Positions 30,401 to 44,233 of a stretch of DNA of 64,000 nt are shown piece after piece. Source of the stretch: Pseudanabaena sp. FACHB-2040 (GTDB lineage: Bacteria; Cyanobacteriota; Cyanobacteriia; Phormidesmidales; Phormidesmidaceae). The DNA lies in assembly GCF_014696715.1 (NCBI RefSeq), contig NZ_JACJQO010000022.1, forward strand, positions 1 to 64,000, given 5' to 3'. Below the pieces are notes generated by a model, which saw only the letters and a list, made by a program, of their open reading frames with translations, ran no database searches and was not told where the DNA came from. The number at the start of each line of letters is the position of its first letter. Positions within the stretch are counted from its first letter, which is position 1. The translations under genes and the position numbers were made by a program.

Positions 30401-32395
30401 ATGACTAACTCCTCATCATCTCGGCGGGCGCTGGTTTTACAAAGAAGTTTTTCGCCTTTTGGCAACAAGCTGATCCAGGCCGGCTTTGTTGATTCCGACC
30501 AGATGCAGCAGGCGTTGGCCGAGAGCCGCAAATCGGGGCGATCGCTGACGGATGTGCTGGAGGCTTTGACGGGTCAGCAGCTTTCTCCAGAGCTGCTGCG
30601 CCAGTACAAGAAGCAGCAGCTCTTTGAACTAAAAATTCTATACGGCGTCGAATCTCTCGATCCGGAACTAGACGACATTTCAACCACCCACGTCACCCAG
30701 CTAATCGACAGGCTGATTCCGGTAGACGTTTGCCGTCGGCATCAGCTAGTGCCCTTGTCCCACACGGAGGGAGAAGCAGGATCTGTCCTGGTGGCAATGG
30801 TTGATCCTGAGAACCTTGAGGCTCAAGACGATTTGAACCGAATTCTGCGGCCTCAGAACCTGAAGCTGCGGCGCATGGTGGTGACTGTTGAAGACTACCA
30901 GCGGCTCATCTCCTCCTATCTTGACGAAGCTGTTGCCCGGCAGAAGAAGGAAGAGTTTGAGCAGGCCGTCGATGTTAAAAGCGACCTAGAGGAGCTTGAC
31001 GTTGGGGGGTTAGAAGAGGTCATCGACGGCGAGGCTGACCTAGGAGAGGCTTTGAAGGATGCTGGCGCTGCTCCTGTCATTGCGCTGGTTAACAAAATTC
31101 TGGTGAAGGCGCTGCAGGAAGGGGTCTCTGATATTCACGTGGAACCCCAGGAAGAGTTTTTGCGGGTGCGCTTCCGTAAGGACGGGGTGCTGCGAGAAGC
31201 TCTGCCAAAAATGCCGAAGAAGATTATTCAGGCGGTTACTGCTCGCTTTAAGATCATTGCCGAACTTGATATTGCTGAGCGCAGAGTACCTCAGGATGGC
31301 CGGATTCGTCGGGTTTTTCAGGGCCGCAAGGTAGACTTCCGGGTCAGCACACTGCCCAGCCGCTGTGGCGAGAAGGTTGTCCTGCGAATTTTGGATAACG
31401 AATCGACCCAGCTTGGACTGGATAAGATGATCACCGATGCCGCAACATTGCGGATTGTGCAGGATATGGCTTCGCGGCCCTATGGCCTGATTTTGGTGAC
31501 GGGACCAACCGGATCGGGCAAAACCACAACCCTGTACTCAGTGCTCTCAGAACGCAACGACCCTGGCGTTAATATCAGCACTGCTGAAGACCCGATTGAG
31601 TACACCCTGCCCGGCCTGACTCAGGTGCAGGTAATTCGCGAAAAGGGCATGAACTTTGCCTCCATTCTGCGAGCCTTTTTGCGGCAGGACCCGGACGTGA
31701 TTCTGGTGGGTGAAACCCGTGACCCGGAAACGGCCAAGACAGCCATCGAAGCAGCCTTGACCGGACACCTGGTACTAACCACACTGCACACTAATGATGC
31801 GGCGGGTGCGATCGCACGTCTCGACGAGATGGGTGTTGAGTCCTTCATGGTATCGAGTGCCCTGATTGGCGTCCTGGCTCAGCGTCTGATGCGCAAAGTG
31901 TGTTCAGAGTGCCGAGTTGCCTATCATCCCAACCAAGAGGAACTGGCTCACTTTGGCCTTAGTGCTTCCAGCGAGACAGACGTCACTTTCTACAAAGCCA
32001 ACCACGTCGAGGACATGGAGGCAGCCAAACGAGATGGCTCTCTCTGTGCCACCTGTCAAGGCATCGGCTACAAAGGCCGAGTTGGCGTATATGAGGTGAT
32101 GCGAGTGACAGAAAGGCTACAGAAGCTGATTTCTGAAGGCGCTCCCACCGAGCACATCAAAGAGGTTGCCGTTGAAGAAGGAATGCAAACGCTATTGGCC
32201 TATAGCCTGAATCTGGTCAGACAAGGCTACACCACGCTTGATGAAGTCGAGCGGGTGACCTTTACAGACACTGGCCTAGAAGCAGAGTTAAAGTCCAAGC
32301 GCAAGGCATCTCTGACCTGCTCATGCTGTGCTGCCCAGCTCAAACAGGAGTGGCTGGACTGCCCTTACTGTCTCACCGCCCGCTTCCAAGACTAA
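30401..32395 (+). CDS. pilB: Type IV pilus extension ATPase PilB
   Basis: The 664-residue GspE/PilB-family ATPase has an N-terminal MshEN-type domain (about 15-180). The catalytic core carries Walker A GPTGSGKTTT (about 367), an Asp box, Walker B (ILVGETRDPETAKTAIEAALTGH) and a His box (LTTLHTNDAAGAI). A zinc-binding tetracysteine follows (CSECRVAY...CATCQGIG). A second C-terminal Cys cluster (CSCC...CPYC, last 25 residues) forms a likely zinc ribbon. In Synechocystis the PilB1 C-terminus binds Hfq. PilB powers pilus extension for phototactic motility and DNA uptake. It is the first gene of a pilB-pilT-pilC set. Confidence 0.95.
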   Translation: MTNSSSSRRALVLQRSFSPFGNKLIQAGFVDSDQMQQALAESRKSGRSLTDVLEALTGQQLSPELLRQYKKQQLFELKILYGVESLDPELDDISTTHVTQLIDRLIPVDVCRRHQLVPLSHTEGEAGSVLVAMVDPENLEAQDDLNRILRPQNLKLRRMVVTVEDYQRLISSYLDEAVARQKKEEFEQAVDVKSDLEELDVGGLEEVIDGEADLGEALKDAGAAPVIALVNKILVKALQEGVSDIHVEPQEEFLRVRFRKDGVLREALPKMPKKIIQAVTARFKIIAELDIAERRVPQDGRIRRVFQGRKVDFRVSTLPSRCGEKVVLRILDNESTQLGLDKMITDAATLRIVQDMASRPYGLILVTGPTGSGKTTTLYSVLSERNDPGVNISTAEDPIEYTLPGLTQVQVIREKGMNFASILRAFLRQDPDVILVGETRDPETAKTAIEAALTGHLVLTTLHTNDAAGAIARLDEMGVESFMVSSALIGVLAQRLMRKVCSECRVAYHPNQEELAHFGLSASSETDVTFYKANHVEDMEAAKRDGSLCATCQGIGYKGRVGVYEVMRVTERLQKLISEGAPTEHIKEVAVEEGMQTLLAYSLNLVRQGYTTLDEVERVTFTDTGLEAELKSKRKASLTCSCCAAQLKQEWLDCPYCLTARFQD

Positions 32396-32497
32396 ATCTC
32401 CAAGCCCCAATCGTGATTTGGGTGACAGCCTAATTGCTGCTTTGGGGCATGCTGAAAACTAAGCTCAATGCAACTACACGTGACTTGAGGTGGCTCT

Positions 32498-33616
32498 ATG
32501 GAACTGATGATTGAAGATCTGATGGAGGAGGTAATTGAGCGGGGCGGGTCTGACCTGCACCTCTCCGCCGGCTTACCTCCCTACATCCGGATCAGCGGCA
32601 AGCTCACCCCGACCGAGCATGAGCCCATGACAGCCGAAGCCTGCCAGCGGCTGATTTTCCAAATGCTCAACAACACCCAGCGCAAGACCCTAGAGCAGAC
32701 CTGGGAGTTGGACTGCTCCTACGGCGTCAAAGGGCTGGCCCGGTTCCGGGTCAACGTTTACAAAGATCGGGGTACCTACGCTGCCTGTTTGCGAGCGCTT
32801 AGCTCCAAAATTCCCAGCATGGAGATGTTGGGCTTGCCCAATATTGTTCGGGAGCTTTCAGAAAAGCCAAGAGGACTCATTTTGGTGACGGGGCCTACCG
32901 GTTCGGGTAAGTCTACAACCCTGGCCTCGATGATTAACAACATCAACCTGACTCGGCCGGAGCACATCCTCACCATCGAAGACCCGATCGAGTTTATCTA
33001 CGAACCCCACAAAAGCCTGATTCACCAACGGCAGATTGGTGAAGACACCAAGAGCTTCTCTAATGCACTGCGGGCAGCCCTGCGGGAAGACCCTGACGTC
33101 GTTCTGGTAGGCGAAATGCGGGACCTAGAGACCATCTCCCTCGCAGTTTCAGCAGCAGAAACAGGTCACCTCGTCTTTGGCACGCTGCACACTAGTTCAG
33201 CTGCTCAGACTGTTGACCGGATGGTAGACGTTTTCCCTCCGGACCAACAGCAGCAGGTACGGGTGCAGCTTTCCAACTCTCTGGTAGCGGTCTTGAGCCA
33301 AACCCTGGTACCCAGACACAATCCGAAGCCCGGTGAGTTTGGCCGTATCATGGCTCAGGAGATCATGGTGGTCACGCCCGCTATCTCCAACCTGATTCGG
33401 GAAGGAAAAACGGCACAGATTTATGGCGCTATTCAGACCGGCGGCAAACTGGGCATGCAGACGCTAGAGAAAGTGCTGGCCGACCTTTACAAGGCAGGCA
33501 GCATTTCCTTTGATTCTGCGATGACAAAGACCTCTCGCCCAGACGAACTGCAGCGGCTCATTGGCTCCGGACCAGCCCCTACGGCAGCCGGTCAAAAAGT
33601 AGCAGCCCGACACTAA
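32498..33616 (+). CDS. pilT: Type IV pilus retraction ATPase PilT
   Basis: The 372-residue protein has the N-terminal PAS-like domain (GSDLHLSAGLPPYIRISGKL), Walker A GPTGSGKST (about 131-139), Asp box (TIEDPIEFIYEP), Walker B (VVLVGEMRDLETI) and His boxes (ETGHLVFGTLHTSSA). The AIRNLIRE-like motif typical of PilT is present as AISNLIREGK. PilT depolymerises pili. It is 102 bp after pilB; the two adjacent ATPases and the following pilC form the motor module. Confidence 0.95.
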   Translation: MELMIEDLMEEVIERGGSDLHLSAGLPPYIRISGKLTPTEHEPMTAEACQRLIFQMLNNTQRKTLEQTWELDCSYGVKGLARFRVNVYKDRGTYAACLRALSSKIPSMEMLGLPNIVRELSEKPRGLILVTGPTGSGKSTTLASMINNINLTRPEHILTIEDPIEFIYEPHKSLIHQRQIGEDTKSFSNALRAALREDPDVVLVGEMRDLETISLAVSAAETGHLVFGTLHTSSAAQTVDRMVDVFPPDQQQQVRVQLSNSLVAVLSQTLVPRHNPKPGEFGRIMAQEIMVVTPAISNLIREGKTAQIYGAIQTGGKLGMQTLEKVLADLYKAGSISFDSAMTKTSRPDELQRLIGSGPAPTAAGQKVAARH

Positions 33617-33877
33617 ACCCCAATAATCGGCCTGTCTGCCAACACCAGGCAAGCCGTTAGCGGAAGGAGAGCAAACTAGCAATGTCTGCTCTCCTCCCCC
33701 TGCCACCTTTGCAACCCTCAAGCTGTTGTTGCGGCTGTTGCTACGGCCTCAACCGTGTTTTCTCCGCAGGGAACTGCAGGAGCACTTTTAGAGATTCTGT
33801 GTTAGCGTTTCAGCGATCTTTCGCAAGCTACTCAGGCATTCTCTTCCGTTCATTACCTACGAAAGTACCGTTGAACC

Positions 33878-35098
33878 ATGCCTACCTACGTTGCAACAGG
33901 CCGTGACACGTTGGGAAATCAGCGCCGGGAACGGGTCTCAGCCGCTAACCCCAACGAAGCCAGAAATTTACTGAAGGACCAGGGCCTTTACGTCCAGGAT
34001 CTGCAGGAAGAACGAGGTTTTAATATCGACTTCCAGGATCTGCAGACGGCGATGACCAAGGTGTCGGTGAAGGATAAGGCCATCTTTTCCCGACAGTTTG
34101 CTGCGCTGGTCAATGCTGGGGTCGCTTTGGTGCGCGGGCTCGGGGTGCTCTCTGATGAATGCCCTAACCCTAAGCTGAAAAAGGCGCTACTCGAGATTAA
34201 CGCAGACGTGCAGCAGGGAACCAATCTCTCGGACGCAATGCGGAAGCACCCTTCCTGCTTTGACAACCTCTACGTTGCCCTGATCCAGGCTGGTGAGGTT
34301 GGCGGTGTGCTAGACGAGGTGCTGAACCGGCTAGCTAAGCTGCTAGAAGACCTGAACCGCTTGCAGAACCAGATCAAGGCAGCGATGGCCTACCCGGTTA
34401 CGGTCGGCATTTTGGCCGTCGTGATTTTCTTGGCCATGTGTATGTTCCTGCTGCCCATCTTTGCTGACATGTTTGCTCAGTTTGATGCGGAGCTACCGGT
34501 CTTTACCCAGATGCTGCTGATGATCAGTGGCTTTTTGCGGCAGTGGTACAACTGGGTAATCACGATTGCCGTAATCAGTGCTGCGACCTTTGCCTACAGA
34601 CGCTACTATGCGACACCGACGGGCCGCCGCAACATGGACCGCTTTTTCCTGAAGATGCCCCTTTTTGGTGATCTGATTCAAAAGACGGCAACTGCGCGCT
34701 TTTGCCGCACTTTTGGCTCCCTATCTCGTTCTGGGGTGCCTATCTTGACGTCGCTGGAGATCGTTCGAGATACCGCCGGAAACCAGGTCATTGCCGATGC
34801 TGTCGATGAGGCTCGCAAGGAAATTCAGACCGGCGGCATGATCAGCCTAGCGCTCCAGCAGCACAAGGTCTTTCCGGTAATGGCTATTCAGATGATTAGC
34901 ATTGGTGAGGAAACCGGAGAGCTAGACGCAATGCTAATGAAGGTGGCTGACTTTTATGAGGACGAAGTTGAACAAGCGGTAAAAGCGCTGACTAGCATTA
35001 TGGAGCCGCTGATGATCATGGTCCTAGGGGGCATGGTCGGCTCAATTCTAGTCGGAATGTACTTGCCCATGTTCAAAATCATGGATGTGGTTCAGTAA
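33878..35098 (+). CDS. pilC: Type IV pilus inner-membrane platform protein PilC
   Basis: The 406-residue protein has two repeated GspF domains (IFSRQFAALVNAGVALVRGLGVL at about 70 and RFCRTFGSLSRSGVPILTSLEIV at about 275). Three membrane regions are near 170-195, 220-242 and 375-400. The repeated pattern LYVALIQAGEVGGVLDEVLNRLA and MISIGEETGELDAMLMKVADFYE is diagnostic. PilC couples PilB/PilT to pilin assembly. A 261-bp spacer separates it from pilT, and a rho-independent terminator ends the set. Confidence 0.95.
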   Translation: MPTYVATGRDTLGNQRRERVSAANPNEARNLLKDQGLYVQDLQEERGFNIDFQDLQTAMTKVSVKDKAIFSRQFAALVNAGVALVRGLGVLSDECPNPKLKKALLEINADVQQGTNLSDAMRKHPSCFDNLYVALIQAGEVGGVLDEVLNRLAKLLEDLNRLQNQIKAAMAYPVTVGILAVVIFLAMCMFLLPIFADMFAQFDAELPVFTQMLLMISGFLRQWYNWVITIAVISAATFAYRRYYATPTGRRNMDRFFLKMPLFGDLIQKTATARFCRTFGSLSRSGVPILTSLEIVRDTAGNQVIADAVDEARKEIQTGGMISLALQQHKVFPVMAIQMISIGEETGELDAMLMKVADFYEDEVEQAVKALTSIMEPLMIMVLGGMVGSILVGMYLPMFKIMDVVQ

Positions 35099-39133: not shown

Positions 39134-40087
39134 TTAGACCAGCTGCAGGTCAGGGTACTCAGCAATTAGCTCATCTGCCGTCAGGGTTTCACCCGACTGT
39201 TGAGGCGTCCAGAGGACTTCGACCGCCAATAGACGCTCGCTGGAAATAGCTCCAATCTGGCTCAGAGCCCGTCGCAGATCCTGCTCGCTGTTGATAGTTG
39301 GCAGGTCAAGTTTGCCTTGAACGCCCACTACTACCGTCGCCACAATGTATTCACCAGGCTGGTTAGCGCTAGCGCTACCGGGTAGGGCAGCTGTGGGGTC
39401 TGCCTGCTGCAGACGGTTGTTGATGTTGGTCAACGTTTCACCCGTAAACTTGCTGCGCTCAGTCAGCGCTAGCCGGTTAAACTCCTGCTCAGCAGAAAGT
39501 AAGCGGGTTTGCGTATCGTCAGTAGAGGCATAGGCCCAGTAGTCGGGGTGGCGCAGCAGAGACAGTGTCGTTTCCTGCAGCAGCTGAGCTAGACCCTCGT
39601 CAGAAGACGTATTGGCCGTACGGGCAATACGATTTAGGTCTTCCTGCAGACTACGAGCTTCAGCCAGTAGTCCAACCTGAAGCTTAGCAACAGAAACAAC
39701 GGGATTGGACTGGGAGCCGTAGCTAGATTCGTATTCTGTTTCGGTGGAAATGCCTCGGAAGCTACGAACTAGGAAGTTGGCGATGGCAAAGAAAATTAGG
39801 ATCGAGAACAGACCCCCAAAGCCACCACCAATGCCAAAGATCGGCATGATGAAGGGGAAGCCAAAGCCTCCACCTGGGTAATATCCACCACCAGAGGGGC
39901 CTCGGTAAGTCCGGGTGGGGGGAGCGTAGGTCCGACTCGGTGCCCGGAAACTACCGCCTCCCATCCGTCCTCCAGCCCGGGCGGCCAAAGCACCATCTGC
40001 TTGACCCAGAACCAGGGTCAAGATCAGGCCAACTACGGCCAGGGACTTCAAGAAGGGCTTGAATCGTCGGAAAAGTTTTTGAGCCAT
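39134..40087 (-). CDS. DUF1517 membrane-associated protein
   Basis: The 317-residue protein starts with a signal peptide or membrane segment (about 14-35, ending in ALA-AR). A Gly/Arg/Tyr-rich low-complexity stretch (GGRMGGGSFRAPSRTY, GGGYYPGGGFGFPF) and a membrane helix (GGLFSILIFFAIANFLVRSFR, about 90-112) follow. The C-terminal soluble DUF1517 domain carries VSVAKLQVGLLAEARSLQEDL and VATVVVGVQGKLDLP. The family occurs in cyanobacteria and plastids (chloroplast envelope/thylakoid proteins); function is unknown. It is monocistronic with a strong terminator. Confidence 0.85.
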   Translation of the reverse strand: MAQKLFRRFKPFLKSLAVVGLILTLVLGQADGALAARAGGRMGGGSFRAPSRTYAPPTRTYRGPSGGGYYPGGGFGFPFIMPIFGIGGGFGGLFSILIFFAIANFLVRSFRGISTETEYESSYGSQSNPVVSVAKLQVGLLAEARSLQEDLNRIARTANTSSDEGLAQLLQETTLSLLRHPDYWAYASTDDTQTRLLSAEQEFNRLALTERSKFTGETLTNINNRLQQADPTAALPGSASANQPGEYIVATVVVGVQGKLDLPTINSEQDLRRALSQIGAISSERLLAVEVLWTPQQSGETLTADELIAEYPDLQLV

Positions 40088-40337: not shown

Positions 40338-40571
40338 TTAGGATTGACCGCCGCCTACGATAGTCACGATTTCTAGGCGATCGCCCTCCTGCAAGCAGGT
40401 GTGATCCCAGTACTGGCGATGCAGAATTTCGCCGTTGTATTCCACCGCCACCAGGCGAGGATTAAGGCCTAGCTGCTCTAGAAAAGCGGGCAGACCAGTC
40501 TGGGGAGCACAGGTGCGGGTTTCGCCGTTGACCTGAAGCTGAACTTGGGGCTGGGAGGGCGTCGATTGCAT
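40338..40571 (-). CDS. thiS: Sulfur carrier protein ThiS (with two-residue tail)
   Basis: About 77 residues from ATG 40571; a TTG at 40583 overlapping the thiE stop is an alternative start. The beta-grasp protein contains LQVNGETRTC, VAVEYNGEILHRQYW and EGDRLEIVTIVGGG, the ThiS/MoaD-like C-terminal strand. Normally ThiS ends in exactly Gly-Gly, whose carboxylate is adenylated and thiocarboxylated by ThiF. Here Gln-Ser follows GGG. It is 8 bp behind thiE, as in other cyanobacteria where thiE and thiS are linked for thiazole and thiamine-phosphate synthesis. Confidence 0.88.
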   Translation of the reverse strand: MQSTPSQPQVQLQVNGETRTCAPQTGLPAFLEQLGLNPRLVAVEYNGEILHRQYWDHTCLQEGDRLEIVTIVGGGQS

Positions 40572-40579
40572 GATAGCTG

Positions 40580-41668
40580 TCAAGAAACACGGGCAGCCCG
40601 TAGGGTCTGCTGGTAATTAAGCTGGGCCACAAAAAACTGAGAAATCAGGGTGGGGTTTTCGGCCTGCATGATAGCCCGCACCACAGCCACTCGCTCGGCC
40701 CCCGCCTGAATCACCTCGGTCAGGTTATCTGGGTTGATGCTGCCAATGGCAAACCAAGGGATCGAGGCATGTTCAGCAGCGTAGCGAACGTAATCTAGCC
40801 CGGCTGCCGGTTTGCCCGGCTTCGTGGGGGTGGCATAGACGGGCCCAACCCCGATATAGTCAGCGCCTTCTTCAATGGCGCGGGCCATTTCATCAGGGTT
40901 GGTAGTGGAGCGACCTAGAATGCGCTGACTGCCTAGGATCTGGCGAGCCACTGCAATGGGCATGTCCTGCTGGCCCAGATGCACGCCGTCGGCGTCGATA
41001 GCCAAGGCCAAATCGACTCGGTCATTGACGATAAATAGGGCGCTGTAGCGATGGCAGAGTTCTCTCAATTGCCGAGCGTTTTCCAGGCGAATGCTGTCAT
41101 CGGTATCCTTATCGCGGTACTGCACGATGGAAACGCCGCCCTGCAAAGCCGCTTCGACTGCCCAGAAAAGGTTCTCACCGGGAGTAGTGACCAGGTAGGT
41201 GTGCGATCGCATTAGCTGCTGAAAGCGATGATGGCCCAGCAACTCACTCTCTAGGCTATAGACCTGATAGCGCATATTCTTGCAGGCAGCAGCAAACTCG
41301 ACTTTGTAGAGCTTGCCGTATTCTTCTAGCACCCGCAACGCCTCCTGCACCCGGCAAAAGTTTGCCTGTAGCACAGCGGTGAGGCTGCTGCGTTCAGCTT
41401 CCTGTGGATGGGTCAGGTGAGTGCCCAGATCTCCCGGAGTGTCCCTAGCCAGCCGAATCTGCGGCGTATGCCATTGGGCCAAGGTTTGGCGCAGATGCTT
41501 GATCTGCTCCGTCATCACCCCATGATTTAGGCCAAAGCGGCACCACTCCTCCACGATCCGCAGCCCCTCCCTGGCCCGATCCAGGTTGGCATCAAGAATG
41601 CGAAAAATAGCCAACTCCGTAAACTGGACAGGCTCACCTAACCCCCGCTCAAAATACCGTTCCTGCAT
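40580..41668 (-). CDS. thiE: Thiamine-phosphate synthase with N-terminal extension
   Basis: The 362-residue protein has a C-terminal ThiE TIM barrel (about 150-350) with IVQYRDKD, FIVNDRVDLALAIDADGVHLGQQD, RSTTNPDEM and GVGPVYATPTKPG, which bind HMP-PP and thiazole phosphate. The N-terminal ~150 residues (RILDANLDRAREGLRIVEEWCRF, then VLQANFCRVQEALRVLEEYGKLY) form a helical domain characteristic of cyanobacterial ThiE; its role is not known to me. ThiE joins the pyrimidine and thiazole moieties. thiS follows immediately. No THI-box riboswitch was found upstream. Confidence 0.93.
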   Translation of the reverse strand: MQERYFERGLGEPVQFTELAIFRILDANLDRAREGLRIVEEWCRFGLNHGVMTEQIKHLRQTLAQWHTPQIRLARDTPGDLGTHLTHPQEAERSSLTAVLQANFCRVQEALRVLEEYGKLYKVEFAAACKNMRYQVYSLESELLGHHRFQQLMRSHTYLVTTPGENLFWAVEAALQGGVSIVQYRDKDTDDSIRLENARQLRELCHRYSALFIVNDRVDLALAIDADGVHLGQQDMPIAVARQILGSQRILGRSTTNPDEMARAIEEGADYIGVGPVYATPTKPGKPAAGLDYVRYAAEHASIPWFAIGSINPDNLTEVIQAGAERVAVVRAIMQAENPTLISQFFVAQLNYQQTLRAARVS

Positions 41669-41926: not shown

Positions 41927-44233
41927 ATGACAGCTCCTTCCCTGGTTCTCACCACTCTACTGACAGGGCTTCTCGTCACCCTTACCGGGCCGGGACAAGC
42001 TCAGACAGCTCCACCACCCCAAAACTCCACTCAACTAGACAGCAGTACCGTTGCCAACACCCCTCAGCCCAATCGTCAGTATGTGCTGATTCACGTCAGT
42101 GCAACGGCTGGCAGTGATGCGACCGGCGACGGCAGCCAAATGAAGCCGCTTCAGACCATTTCGCGAGCGCTGCAGATGGCTGAAGCCGGTACCGTCATTG
42201 TGCTGGCTCCAGGAGAGTACAGTGCCGCCAGCGGAGAGACGTTTCCGCTGCAGCTCCGGCCTGGGGTGACGGTGCAGGGTGCGCCCGGATCTGCCCGCAA
42301 CGTAGCGGTTATCCTGGGTGGCGGCGCTTATCTCAGTTCTACCCAAGGCCAGGTAAACGTTGCCGTTTTGGCCGTTGATCGATCAGGCTTGGGCAATGTC
42401 ATGGTCAGCAATACTAATCCCCAGGGCTATGGAGTTTGGGTGGAAACGGGTAGCCCAATTCTGCGTGAAAATCTCTTTGTCGGCAGCGGCCAGGCGGGGG
42501 TTTATGCTACTGGAGCGGGCCTGCCCCTAATTCAACGAAACTATTTCACTCAAAACGGAGTGGCGGGCCTGATCATTGGCAGTCCCTCCCAGGCACAAGT
42601 CCAGGCCAACGTCTTTGAAAACACCAACATTGGCATTCAGGTTGCTCCTGGTGCAGCTCCTCGCATTGAGGAAAACCGGATTGTTCAGAACCAAGACGGG
42701 CTAATCCTTCAAACCAATGCCCGACCTGTCTTGGAAAACAACACCATTGCCCGCAACCGCCGCAATGGATTGGTCGATTTCCAAGCCGCTACTCAAGCCG
42801 AGTCACCGTCAAACCTGGCAAATCTGAATCAACCCCTCTCTTTAGCGACCACACCTGTAGCGACCCCATCTTTTGCCAGTAATGCAGCCCCTCAGCCAGA
42901 GGTCTTTCCCCCCGCCACAACGCCTCTGCCCACTGCCATACTCGGCGATGAACCGCCCTCACCGAGGCCAGCCCTAGCAAATTCCCAGATGCAGGCTGAG
43001 CCGGAGCTGCCGGCTGCCGACATGGCCCCCGTTACCGTAGCATCTCCAGAGACCGCTCGGTCAGCCAGTACAGTAGCCGTTGCTCCACCAGCCTCACCAG
43101 CCTCGGCTTTAGAAACTGCTAACTCTGAACCTGCTACAGGGGTATTGCCTGAACTAGAGGAGCAGCCTCTCAGCAGTGTATTGCCCGAGCCCGAACCGCC
43201 TGAGGTGGCCTTATCGGCACCTGTCTTGCCAGCTGAACTGCCGGCACAGGCTGCAGTAGTTGACCTACCTGTACCTACACCTACCTCTGCACCAGTCATC
43301 GTCTCTGATCCACCGCTGTCCCAACCTGCACTGCTAGAAGCTGACTCACGGCCAGAACCTGCTGCAGCTTCACTTGCGGTACCAGAACCTGCTCTACCAG
43401 AACCTGCCGTAACCGAGCCAGCCACTGTGGACGTACCGACCCCGACAGCTCCCCAGCAGTCGGCAGCGGCTGAGCGAGAGAACATAACTGCCTTACGGGC
43501 TCGAATTTTAGCCCAGCGGCAGCCGCAACCAGCCAGTTCAGCTGCGGGGGGACCGGATACTCCGTCTGAGACAGAGGCTGTTGATCTAGCTGTAATTCCT
43601 TCTTCGGGGGCGACCCCGGCTACAGAGGCTCTGGATACGCCACAGTCAGGAGGTAATATTACGGCGCTGCGGGAGCGGTTACTCCGCAACCGAACCGCAG
43701 CCCAAGCAGGCACAGCCGACAATTCGGCTGAAGCGGTTGCAATTGATGTCACGCCACCGCCGGTAGAGGCCGTAGCCCAACCTGATCCCCAAAACCTGGC
43801 AGCCCTAAATCAGACCCTGCCGCTGATTCCGACAGAGGGTAGCTTACCAGCCTCACCTGGGCCAGATGTGCCCGCCTTGTCGGCTCCCAGCGGGAGTTTG
43901 CCGCTACTCCAGGTGCCCAGTCCCAATATTCCTATGGGCAGCGGTGGAACGATGCCGGAAATTTTGGCCAGCAGTAGCTTCGTTGGCAGCGGTCCGCCGG
44001 CTCCTCCCTCCCGCGCTGGCAGCCTGGGACTTAACTACAAGGTCTTTGTACCCGCTGCCGACGAAGCTGCTCAGAGCCAGGTGCGGGCTATCGTTCCCGA
44101 TGCTTTTCGGGTGAGGATGAACGGGCAGCTGATGATGCAGGCCGGAGCCTTTACTGACCAGGCAACGGCAGATGCGATCGCAAACACCCTAATCCAGCAA
44201 GGCCTCGATGCTAGAGTTCAGCACATGCCCTAG
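41927..44233 (+). CDS. Secreted DUF1565 beta-helix protein with Pro-rich linker and SPOR-like end
   Basis: The 768-residue protein begins with a hydrophobic export segment (about 5-25, ending GQAQTA). A DUF1565/right-handed beta-helix domain follows (about 45-285), with ATGDGSQMKPLQTISRALQMA and repeated short strands such as LIQRNYFTQNGVAGLIIG and IEENRIVQNQDGLILQ. A ~350-residue Pro/Ala/Glu/Val low-complexity linker comes next; it contains two copies of an NITALRxRxLxxR motif near 525 and 585. A final domain (LNYKVFVPAADE to GLDARVQHMP, about 700-768) looks SPOR-like. A surface or periplasmic glycan-binding role is inferred. Its TAG stop overlaps the cysS stop (CTAG at 44230-44233). Confidence 0.8.
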   Translation: MTAPSLVLTTLLTGLLVTLTGPGQAQTAPPPQNSTQLDSSTVANTPQPNRQYVLIHVSATAGSDATGDGSQMKPLQTISRALQMAEAGTVIVLAPGEYSAASGETFPLQLRPGVTVQGAPGSARNVAVILGGGAYLSSTQGQVNVAVLAVDRSGLGNVMVSNTNPQGYGVWVETGSPILRENLFVGSGQAGVYATGAGLPLIQRNYFTQNGVAGLIIGSPSQAQVQANVFENTNIGIQVAPGAAPRIEENRIVQNQDGLILQTNARPVLENNTIARNRRNGLVDFQAATQAESPSNLANLNQPLSLATTPVATPSFASNAAPQPEVFPPATTPLPTAILGDEPPSPRPALANSQMQAEPELPAADMAPVTVASPETARSASTVAVAPPASPASALETANSEPATGVLPELEEQPLSSVLPEPEPPEVALSAPVLPAELPAQAAVVDLPVPTPTSAPVIVSDPPLSQPALLEADSRPEPAAASLAVPEPALPEPAVTEPATVDVPTPTAPQQSAAAERENITALRARILAQRQPQPASSAAGGPDTPSETEAVDLAVIPSSGATPATEALDTPQSGGNITALRERLLRNRTAAQAGTADNSAEAVAIDVTPPPVEAVAQPDPQNLAALNQTLPLIPTEGSLPASPGPDVPALSAPSGSLPLLQVPSPNIPMGSGGTMPEILASSSFVGSGPPAPPSRAGSLGLNYKVFVPAADEAAQSQVRAIVPDAFRVRMNGQLMMQAGAFTDQATADAIANTLIQQGLDARVQHMP

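Follow-up and report, generated by a model that had tools for sequence, protein, structure and literature searches.

A DUF1565 beta-helix protein with a SPOR-like C-terminal domain in Pseudanabaena sp. FACHB-2040: a candidate wall-tethered periplasmic scaffold of cyanobacteria

SPOR domains mark the sites at which amidases strip peptidoglycan during division, and cyanobacteria form multicellular filaments with perforated septa. The gene described here lies at 41927..44233 on the forward strand of a 64,000-nt stretch (the window) of contig NZ_JACJQO010000022.1 from Pseudanabaena sp. FACHB-2040 (GCF_014696715.1); coordinates given without a locus handle are positions in that stretch. It encodes a DUF1565 beta-helix, a Pro/Ala-rich arm and a SPOR-like C-terminus. 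Judged from sequence and predicted folds, and with moderate confidence, the product is read as a periplasmic beta-helix that would be tethered to the denuded peptidoglycan wall by the SPOR-like domain.

In P. aeruginosa RlpA, the side chains of Q270, R302 and R309 are described as touching denuded glycan, with hydrophobic contacts made by F274 and L307 (PMC6895207). The Gln motif lies in the first half of the E. coli SPOR domains, and E. coli RlpA has a second-half Gln as well. One account describes FtsN as not found in cyanobacteria, with one exception (PMC7766704), and another reports that Spirulina vesicles contain a protein in which DUF1565 is joined to three SLH domains (PMC11635480). Literature searches pairing the SPOR domain with circular permutation returned no paper; those combining it with cyanobacteria and peptidoglycan, or with Synechocystis, returned no paper whose title concerned cyanobacterial SPOR proteins or domains.

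Canonical SPOR proteins (PF05036; CwlC, FtsN, RlpA) share with the window protein the beta-alpha-beta-beta-alpha-beta fold (predicted here), the QxGAF motif, a basic residue in the partner strand and the C-terminal position of the domain behind a Pro-rich linker. Unlike them, the window domain carries the Gln/aromatic motif in its second half (strand 3) and Tyr-Arg/Lys in its first (strand 1), which at the sequence level is the reverse of the canonical arrangement, and Pfam aligns just half of it in natural order. Bitopic SPOR proteins of the FtsN/DedD type likewise have a long Pro-rich periplasmic arm with a terminal SPOR domain, but the window protein is apparently exported rather than bitopic and bears a beta-helix; a better FtsN analogue is encoded elsewhere in the genome (locus L040). 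The same N-terminal beta-helix domain is found in other DUF1565 (PF07602) proteins, including a DUF1565-SLH protein (L002), whereas the window protein has a SPOR-like anchor in place of SLH and a long Pro/Ala arm with motifs of its own. A DUF3747-Amidase_3 protein (L003) has the same SPOR-like domain (35.9% identity over 64 residues), but L003 is an amidase and no catalytic domain was recognised in the window protein. The gene and the features of its C-terminal domain are as follows.

41927..44233, forward strand: whole gene, DUF1565 beta-helix/Pro-rich arm/SPOR-like protein, 768 residues plus stop
44027..44230, forward strand: SPOR-like domain, residues 701-768, predicted beta-alpha-beta-beta-alpha-beta (family profile, AF2, VIA-align)
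44036..44041, forward strand: Y704-K705 in strand 1, the basic residue corresponding to RlpA R309 in the proposed half-swapped register
44138..44152, forward strand: Q738-A-G-A-F742 in strand 3, corresponding to RlpA Q270...A273-F274 in the proposed half-swapped register

The C-terminal domain is assigned as related to SPOR because a significant family profile and a matching predicted fold agree. The profile and alignment, A1, were built from 18 of 23 aligned C-termini; against PDB, A1 matched the SPOR domains of CwlC (E=1.7e-8) and FtsN (E=2.1e-3), the next match being at 0.71. Pfam SPOR (gathering cut-off 21 bits, 76 positions) matched 17 of the 18 A1 members at E<=1 (best 5.6e-7). A distant ortholog (L033, genome G035; DUF1565 1.5e-70) was matched at E=2e-12 and 47.7 bits over two SPOR stretches, the strongest score seen for the beta-helix/SPOR architecture. 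Modelling with AF2 gave the order E-H-E-E-H-E (pLDDT 86). The CwlC SPOR ranked first in VIA-align (Z 7.7, root-mean-square deviation 4.0, 74 aligned), with RlpA SPOR bound to denuded glycan (Z 6.1) and FtsN (Z 5.5) amid other ferredoxin-like folds, and its Foldseek query TM-score (0.60) was the highest among the 50 matches listed. The SPOR-like C-terminus proposed in an earlier note made from the sequence alone is thus weak when taken singly and significant as a family; the absence of profile similarity to SPOR, which that note would have counted as refuting, was not observed.

Several observations weigh against a glycan-binding anchor of SPOR type. The window sequence by itself scores under the gathering cut-off: residues 736-764 matched Pfam SPOR at E=0.25 (12.1 bits) in the whole protein and at E=0.0024 in the last 93 residues, and the excised end reached 18.6-19.4 bits over profile positions 6-34 of 76 only. 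A Z of 7.7 falls within the range of common ferredoxin-like arrangements, and Foldseek gave no PDB match at E<=0.001, CwlC SPOR standing at rank 5 (4.6e-3). The position of the canonical strand-1 Gln is hydrophobic (F/I/L/V) in 18/18 A1 sequences. The domain of L003 is detected by the A1 profile (2.6e-20) and is absent from the Pfam matches, and two distant DUF1565 ORFs (open reading frames; L029, L030) were seen by eye to lack the SPOR-like end.

The canonical contact layout of a strand-1 Gln and a strand-3 Arg was not found in A1, the strand-3 position being M/V/F/L/Y/T. Conserved instead are position 704 (Y in 17/18, F in 1/18) and position 705 (K/R in 18/18) in strand 1, and Q738 and F/Y742 (each 18/18) in strand 3. 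Since contact-type residues sit in the opposite strands, the domain was filed as an inverted SPOR-like domain rather than a canonical one; it is the first half of the Pfam profile (positions 6-34) that aligns to the second half of the window domain. For ten of the 18 A1 sequences (window and nine relatives), Pfam SPOR was scored on the natural order, on the halves swapped, and on the second half followed by a shuffled first half. The bits (natural/swapped/shuffled) were 19.4/22.6/19.4, 19.2/24.9/18.4, 24.8/30.0/27.7, 25.1/30.5/25.1, 21.7/28.8/21.0, 18.4/23.6/21.9, 19.1/27.0/18.6, 30.2/34.8/28.9, none/19.6/12.6 and 28.7/36.8/29.0 for sequences 1 to 10. The swapped order exceeded both others in 10/10, with margins of 3.2 to 8.1 bits relative to the natural order and 1.7 to 8.4 relative to the control with a shuffled half, and the gathering score of 21 was reached by 5/10 in natural order and 9/10 with halves swapped. 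In four E. coli SPORs the swap lowered the score in every case (67.3 to 55.8, 50.2 to 41.0, 57.7 to 44.2 and 65.6 to 56.8 bits). The effect appears consistent but modest, and the ten sequences are mutually related. A local profile built from the four E. coli domains lacked the strength to tell the cases apart.

The search was extended to 117 genomes sampled from the phylum, among them the one that holds the window. The second half of Pfam SPOR lay N-terminal to the first, in one frame, in seven genomes (G121, G064, G054, G084, G111, G092, G105), all outside the window's class; examples are G054 (positions 40-75, 29.1 bits, then 2-41, 26.7 bits) and G121 (35-75, 21.8 bits, then 2-38, 29.3 bits). 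By eye these are single domains at protein ends and not the middle of tandem copies. Some of them (L157, L177) carry Gln in both halves, and so does CwlC, each half of which matches the A1 profile; motif relocation through an ancestor with both Gln residues is therefore as likely as true circular permutation.

Other results count against the inversion, or against its generality. Swapping the halves of the A1 profile improved the PDB matches slightly (CwlC 1.7e-8 to 3.5e-9, FtsN 2.1e-3 to 5.8e-4) but left the first half unrecruited in either case, a result that speaks against claiming permutation strongly. The swap helped less in other cyanobacterial families, where it moved the count at E<=1e-4 from 15/23 to 17/23 and the best match from 1.6e-6 to 1.5e-7. 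For this set, 54 domain matches were kept and 12 dropped by the cutting rule, 34/54 lay outside the beta-helix family, and 23 of those 34 were used after near-duplicates and one badly cut row had been omitted; only sequences with Q, N or R in the motif position passed that rule, which biases the count of Q in 53/54, and A1 was relied on instead. Twelve loci outside the window's class (L144-L155) match the whole SPOR profile in natural order, and within the class natural-order matches over both halves occur in a few copies, such as those of G091 (3-71), G043 (3-65) and G140 (16-75); inversion is therefore not universal there. We propose tentatively, at somewhat less than even confidence, that photosynthetic cyanobacteria widely use a SPOR domain with functionally inverted halves, the glycan site (Gln, aromatic, Arg) being rebuilt across the internal two-fold axis either by circular permutation or by motif relocation via a both-Gln ancestor.

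Loss of the canonical strand-1 Gln would also be expected if the C-terminus had kept the SPOR fold without glycan binding and served protein-protein contact or dimerisation, and small ferredoxin-like folds have many purposes, many unrelated ones standing in the VIA-align list. Against this explanation, which we consider unlikely, Q738, F/Y742 and K/R705 are kept in 18/18 in a register that rebuilds the RlpA site, and the SPOR-like domain is fused to an amidase in L003.

Searching with A1 located seven sites with the SPOR-like domain in the Pseudanabaena genome, namely the window, L003, L005 (two possible copies), L004, L006, L042 and L040. The protein at L003 (910-2409, reverse strand) combines DUF3747 (1.8e-68), the SPOR-like domain and Amidase_3 (6.8e-56), and from its domains it is a cyanobacterial amidase with a SPOR-like targeting domain of its own. 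The DUF1565 paralog at L002 (1477-3657) has SLH domains (188.1 bits, five stretches) in place of the SPOR-like end. The same beta-helix is thus apparently borne by either of two kinds of wall anchor, SLH and SPOR-like, which argues for its display on the wall. At L040 (376-1737; G000:C17:136475-137833) a 453-residue protein has a cytoplasmic-looking part, one hydrophobic stretch, a Pro/Ala arm and a SPOR-like end scoring above the Pfam cut-off (21.2 bits). Matches to it at E<=1e-6 came from 33 of 39 genomes and in part cover just the C-terminal domain; among the 30 fetched loci, a hydrophobic stretch of 19 residues was present in 30 and the SPOR-like end in 29, the frame of L127 ending early. 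L040, bitopic by appearance, looks like the counterpart of FtsN/DedD. The exported-looking product of L004 (1306-1698, 130 residues) consists of little beyond the SPOR-like domain, which was matched by A1 and not by Pfam, and its start overlaps the end of a FecR-domain gene.

The N-terminal domain occupies the following segment.

42080..42790, forward strand: right-handed beta-helix domain, DUF1565, residues 52-288 (Pfam, AF2, VIA-align)

Pfam DUF1565 matched residues 61-265 at E=1.3e-24 (87.4 bits, cut-off 20.3), and AF2 run with 26 sequences gave a right-handed beta-helix (pLDDT 93.9); a profile match over the curated cut-off and the predicted fold thus agree on the DUF1565 beta-helix named in the earlier note. 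In NCBIfam the one match above its cut-off was a parallel beta-helix repeat; those under their cut-offs were LIC10774 surface proteins, NosD and another beta-helix family, with FtsN for the last 93 residues. VIA-align neighbours were pectate lyases, alginate lyases/epimerases, rhamnogalacturonan lyases, glycoside hydrolases and phage tailspikes (best Z 22.5), and the carbohydrate-type character ascribed to the domain holds as to fold. Across the 26 sequences 24 columns are invariant, 16 of them Gly, Asn or Pro, and none is Lys, Arg or His; the others include Y56, F64, W129 and E62, the single acidic one, and D22 is nearly invariant (A3 numbering). The invariant residues thus appear to be mostly structural.

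An enzymatic role for the beta-helix is quite unlikely; as a working polysaccharide lyase, epimerase or hydrolase it would be brought by the SPOR-like domain to peptidoglycan, or to exopolysaccharide on its way through the wall. The fold neighbours among lyases, epimerases and hydrolases, and the NosD match, would suit such an enzyme, but the same fold serves phage tailspikes and other binding beta-helices, and the invariant set, rich in Gly, Asn and Pro with E62 as its one acidic residue and no basic residue or His, does not suggest catalysis. Most likely the domain binds a polysaccharide or a protein partner.

The architecture was followed in relatives. The window protein was matched at E<=1e-10 in 36 of 39 genomes, its own included and beta-helix-only matches counted too. 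From 30 loci (L001 and L007-L035), 26 ORFs were inspected (L027, L032, L034 and L035 being left out), and the SPOR-like C-terminus was in frame in 23, the window's included; in L022 (G030:C36) the SPOR-like end is out of frame with the beta-helix, through a frameshift or an assembly error. In the phylum sample the SPOR-like domain was found at E<=1e-6 in 55/117 genomes, 44 of them in the window's class, and 21 of the 29 loci fetched in addition to the window's had beta-helix and SPOR-like domain in one ORF. By these counts the architecture is widespread in the phylum.

The reading of a tethered periplasmic beta-helix is supported by what was observed of the domains, the predicted folds, the family-wide conservation, the contact-type residues and the anchor shared with an amidase. 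The protein would be exported to the periplasm, and its SPOR-like domain would hold it on peptidoglycan by gripping peptide-stripped glycan strands; amidases would do the stripping, one candidate being the DUF3747-SPOR-like-Amidase_3 protein encoded in this genome. From this anchor the long, probably disordered arm would let the beta-helix reach around the periplasm and bind its polysaccharide or protein partner, and such a wall-tethered scaffold may be concentrated where denuded glycan arises, chiefly at septa. For the sheath-linked or surface location also suggested in the earlier note no support was found, the peptidoglycan-binding type of end pointing to the periplasm instead. An outer-surface or sheath protein, its arm spanning the outer membrane or extracellular matrix, is highly improbable: a DUF1565-SLH protein is listed in Spirulina vesicles (PMC11635480), but the SPOR-related end implies peptidoglycan contact and no outer-membrane or sorting signal was noticed by eye, no program search having been made for one.

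Between the two domains lies the arm, with the following motifs.

42791..44026, forward strand: Pro/Ala-rich arm, about 410 residues (about residues 290 to 699), by composition
43481..43510, forward strand: NITALRARIL motif, residues 519-528
43577..43606, forward strand: AVDLAVIPSS, the (I/V)x(I/L)x(V/I)(I/V)P arm motif (13/23 arms)
43655..43684, forward strand: NITALRERLL motif, residues 577-586
43913..43948, forward strand: VPSPNIPMGSGG, the VPxx(x)IPxG motif ahead of the SPOR-like domain (18/23 arms)

The arm contains P 18.5%, A 18.0%, S 10.2% and E 7.3%, no Pfam family was matched in it at E<=10, and it is probably disordered. The linker foreseen in the earlier note is therefore present, at about 410 and not about 350 residues; the two NITALRxR(I/L)L motifs were found as claimed, and a degenerate DNA pattern for NITALRxR hit only these two sites in the 6.28-Mb genome (0 in a backwards-read control). 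Motifs were counted in 23 arms, L022 being excluded because its C-terminal domain sits in another frame, and compared with shuffled arms; the patterns were picked after the sequences had been viewed, so that the shuffle means are guides only. VPxx(x)IPxG occurred in 18 (shuffle mean 0.01), at 31-36 residues from strand 1 in 16 of the 18 and at 20 and 54 in the remaining two, and (I/V)x(I/L)x(V/I)(I/V)P in 13 (0.25). The NITALR-like (A/S/Q/D)LRxR(I/L), sought in cyanobacterial relatives as that note had advised, occurred in 7 (0.04), which is real but patchy. NITALR is thus one of three short motifs recurrent in the aligned arms, and the least conserved of them. An antisense ORF of 286 residues opposite the arm (42892-43752, reverse strand) is most likely a shadow of the codon bias of the arm.

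The start of the protein was examined for export.

41927..42001, forward strand: export-signal-like N-terminus, residues 1-25, without basic residues (sequence, by eye)

This segment, MTAPSLVLTTLLTGLLVTLTGPGQAQTA, is hydrophobic with an AxA-like end, as judged by eye, and has zero basic residues counted from the ATG, just as had been pointed out before. The frame upstream of the ATG stays open in Pseudanabaena sp. FACHB-2040. Alignment with G001, the sole genome of the same genus found, showed a 56-base length difference 13 bases 5' of the ATG. An upstream start codon that would supply basic residues to the signal was rejected, the upstream frame not being conserved in G001; because that frame is broken there, the ATG at 41927 is likely the start codon. 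The protein is probably exported to the periplasm. A scan for a promoter and terminator at the gene gave no signal exceeding chance.

The gene adjoins, on the reverse strand (40338-41668 and 39134-40087), thiE (with a ThiD2 domain), thiS and a DUF1517 gene, in an order conserved in many of the fetched cyanobacterial stretches. Near the gene, thiE was found in 11/30 fetched stretches (contig ends truncate some of these, and others hold paralogs) and cysS in 1/30, and the distant ortholog at L033 also adjoins thiE (L063); the gene is therefore probably old in the phylum. A functional link to these neighbours was considered and rejected, thiE being divergent at the window locus and the synteny coming without evidence of shared function. 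Farther off, at 30401-35098 on the forward strand, three consecutive genes have T2SSE/MshEN, T2SSE and T2SSF domains; by eye they resemble pilB, pilT and pilC, which make up the motor of the type IV pilus.

A cyanobacterial SPOR-like family common to a beta-helix scaffold, an amidase and an FtsN-like membrane protein provides direct candidates for septal wall targeting. If the halves of the domain are indeed inverted, sequence searches would often detect no more than one half; this would account for the reported near-absence of FtsN from cyanobacteria despite the conserved bitopic L040 family, and for the failure to recognise phylum-wide wall-anchored proteins (DUF1565-SPOR, DUF3747-SPOR-amidase). 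With such inverted halves it could also be tested cleanly whether a binding domain with pseudo-symmetry is able to shift its site across its own axis of symmetry.

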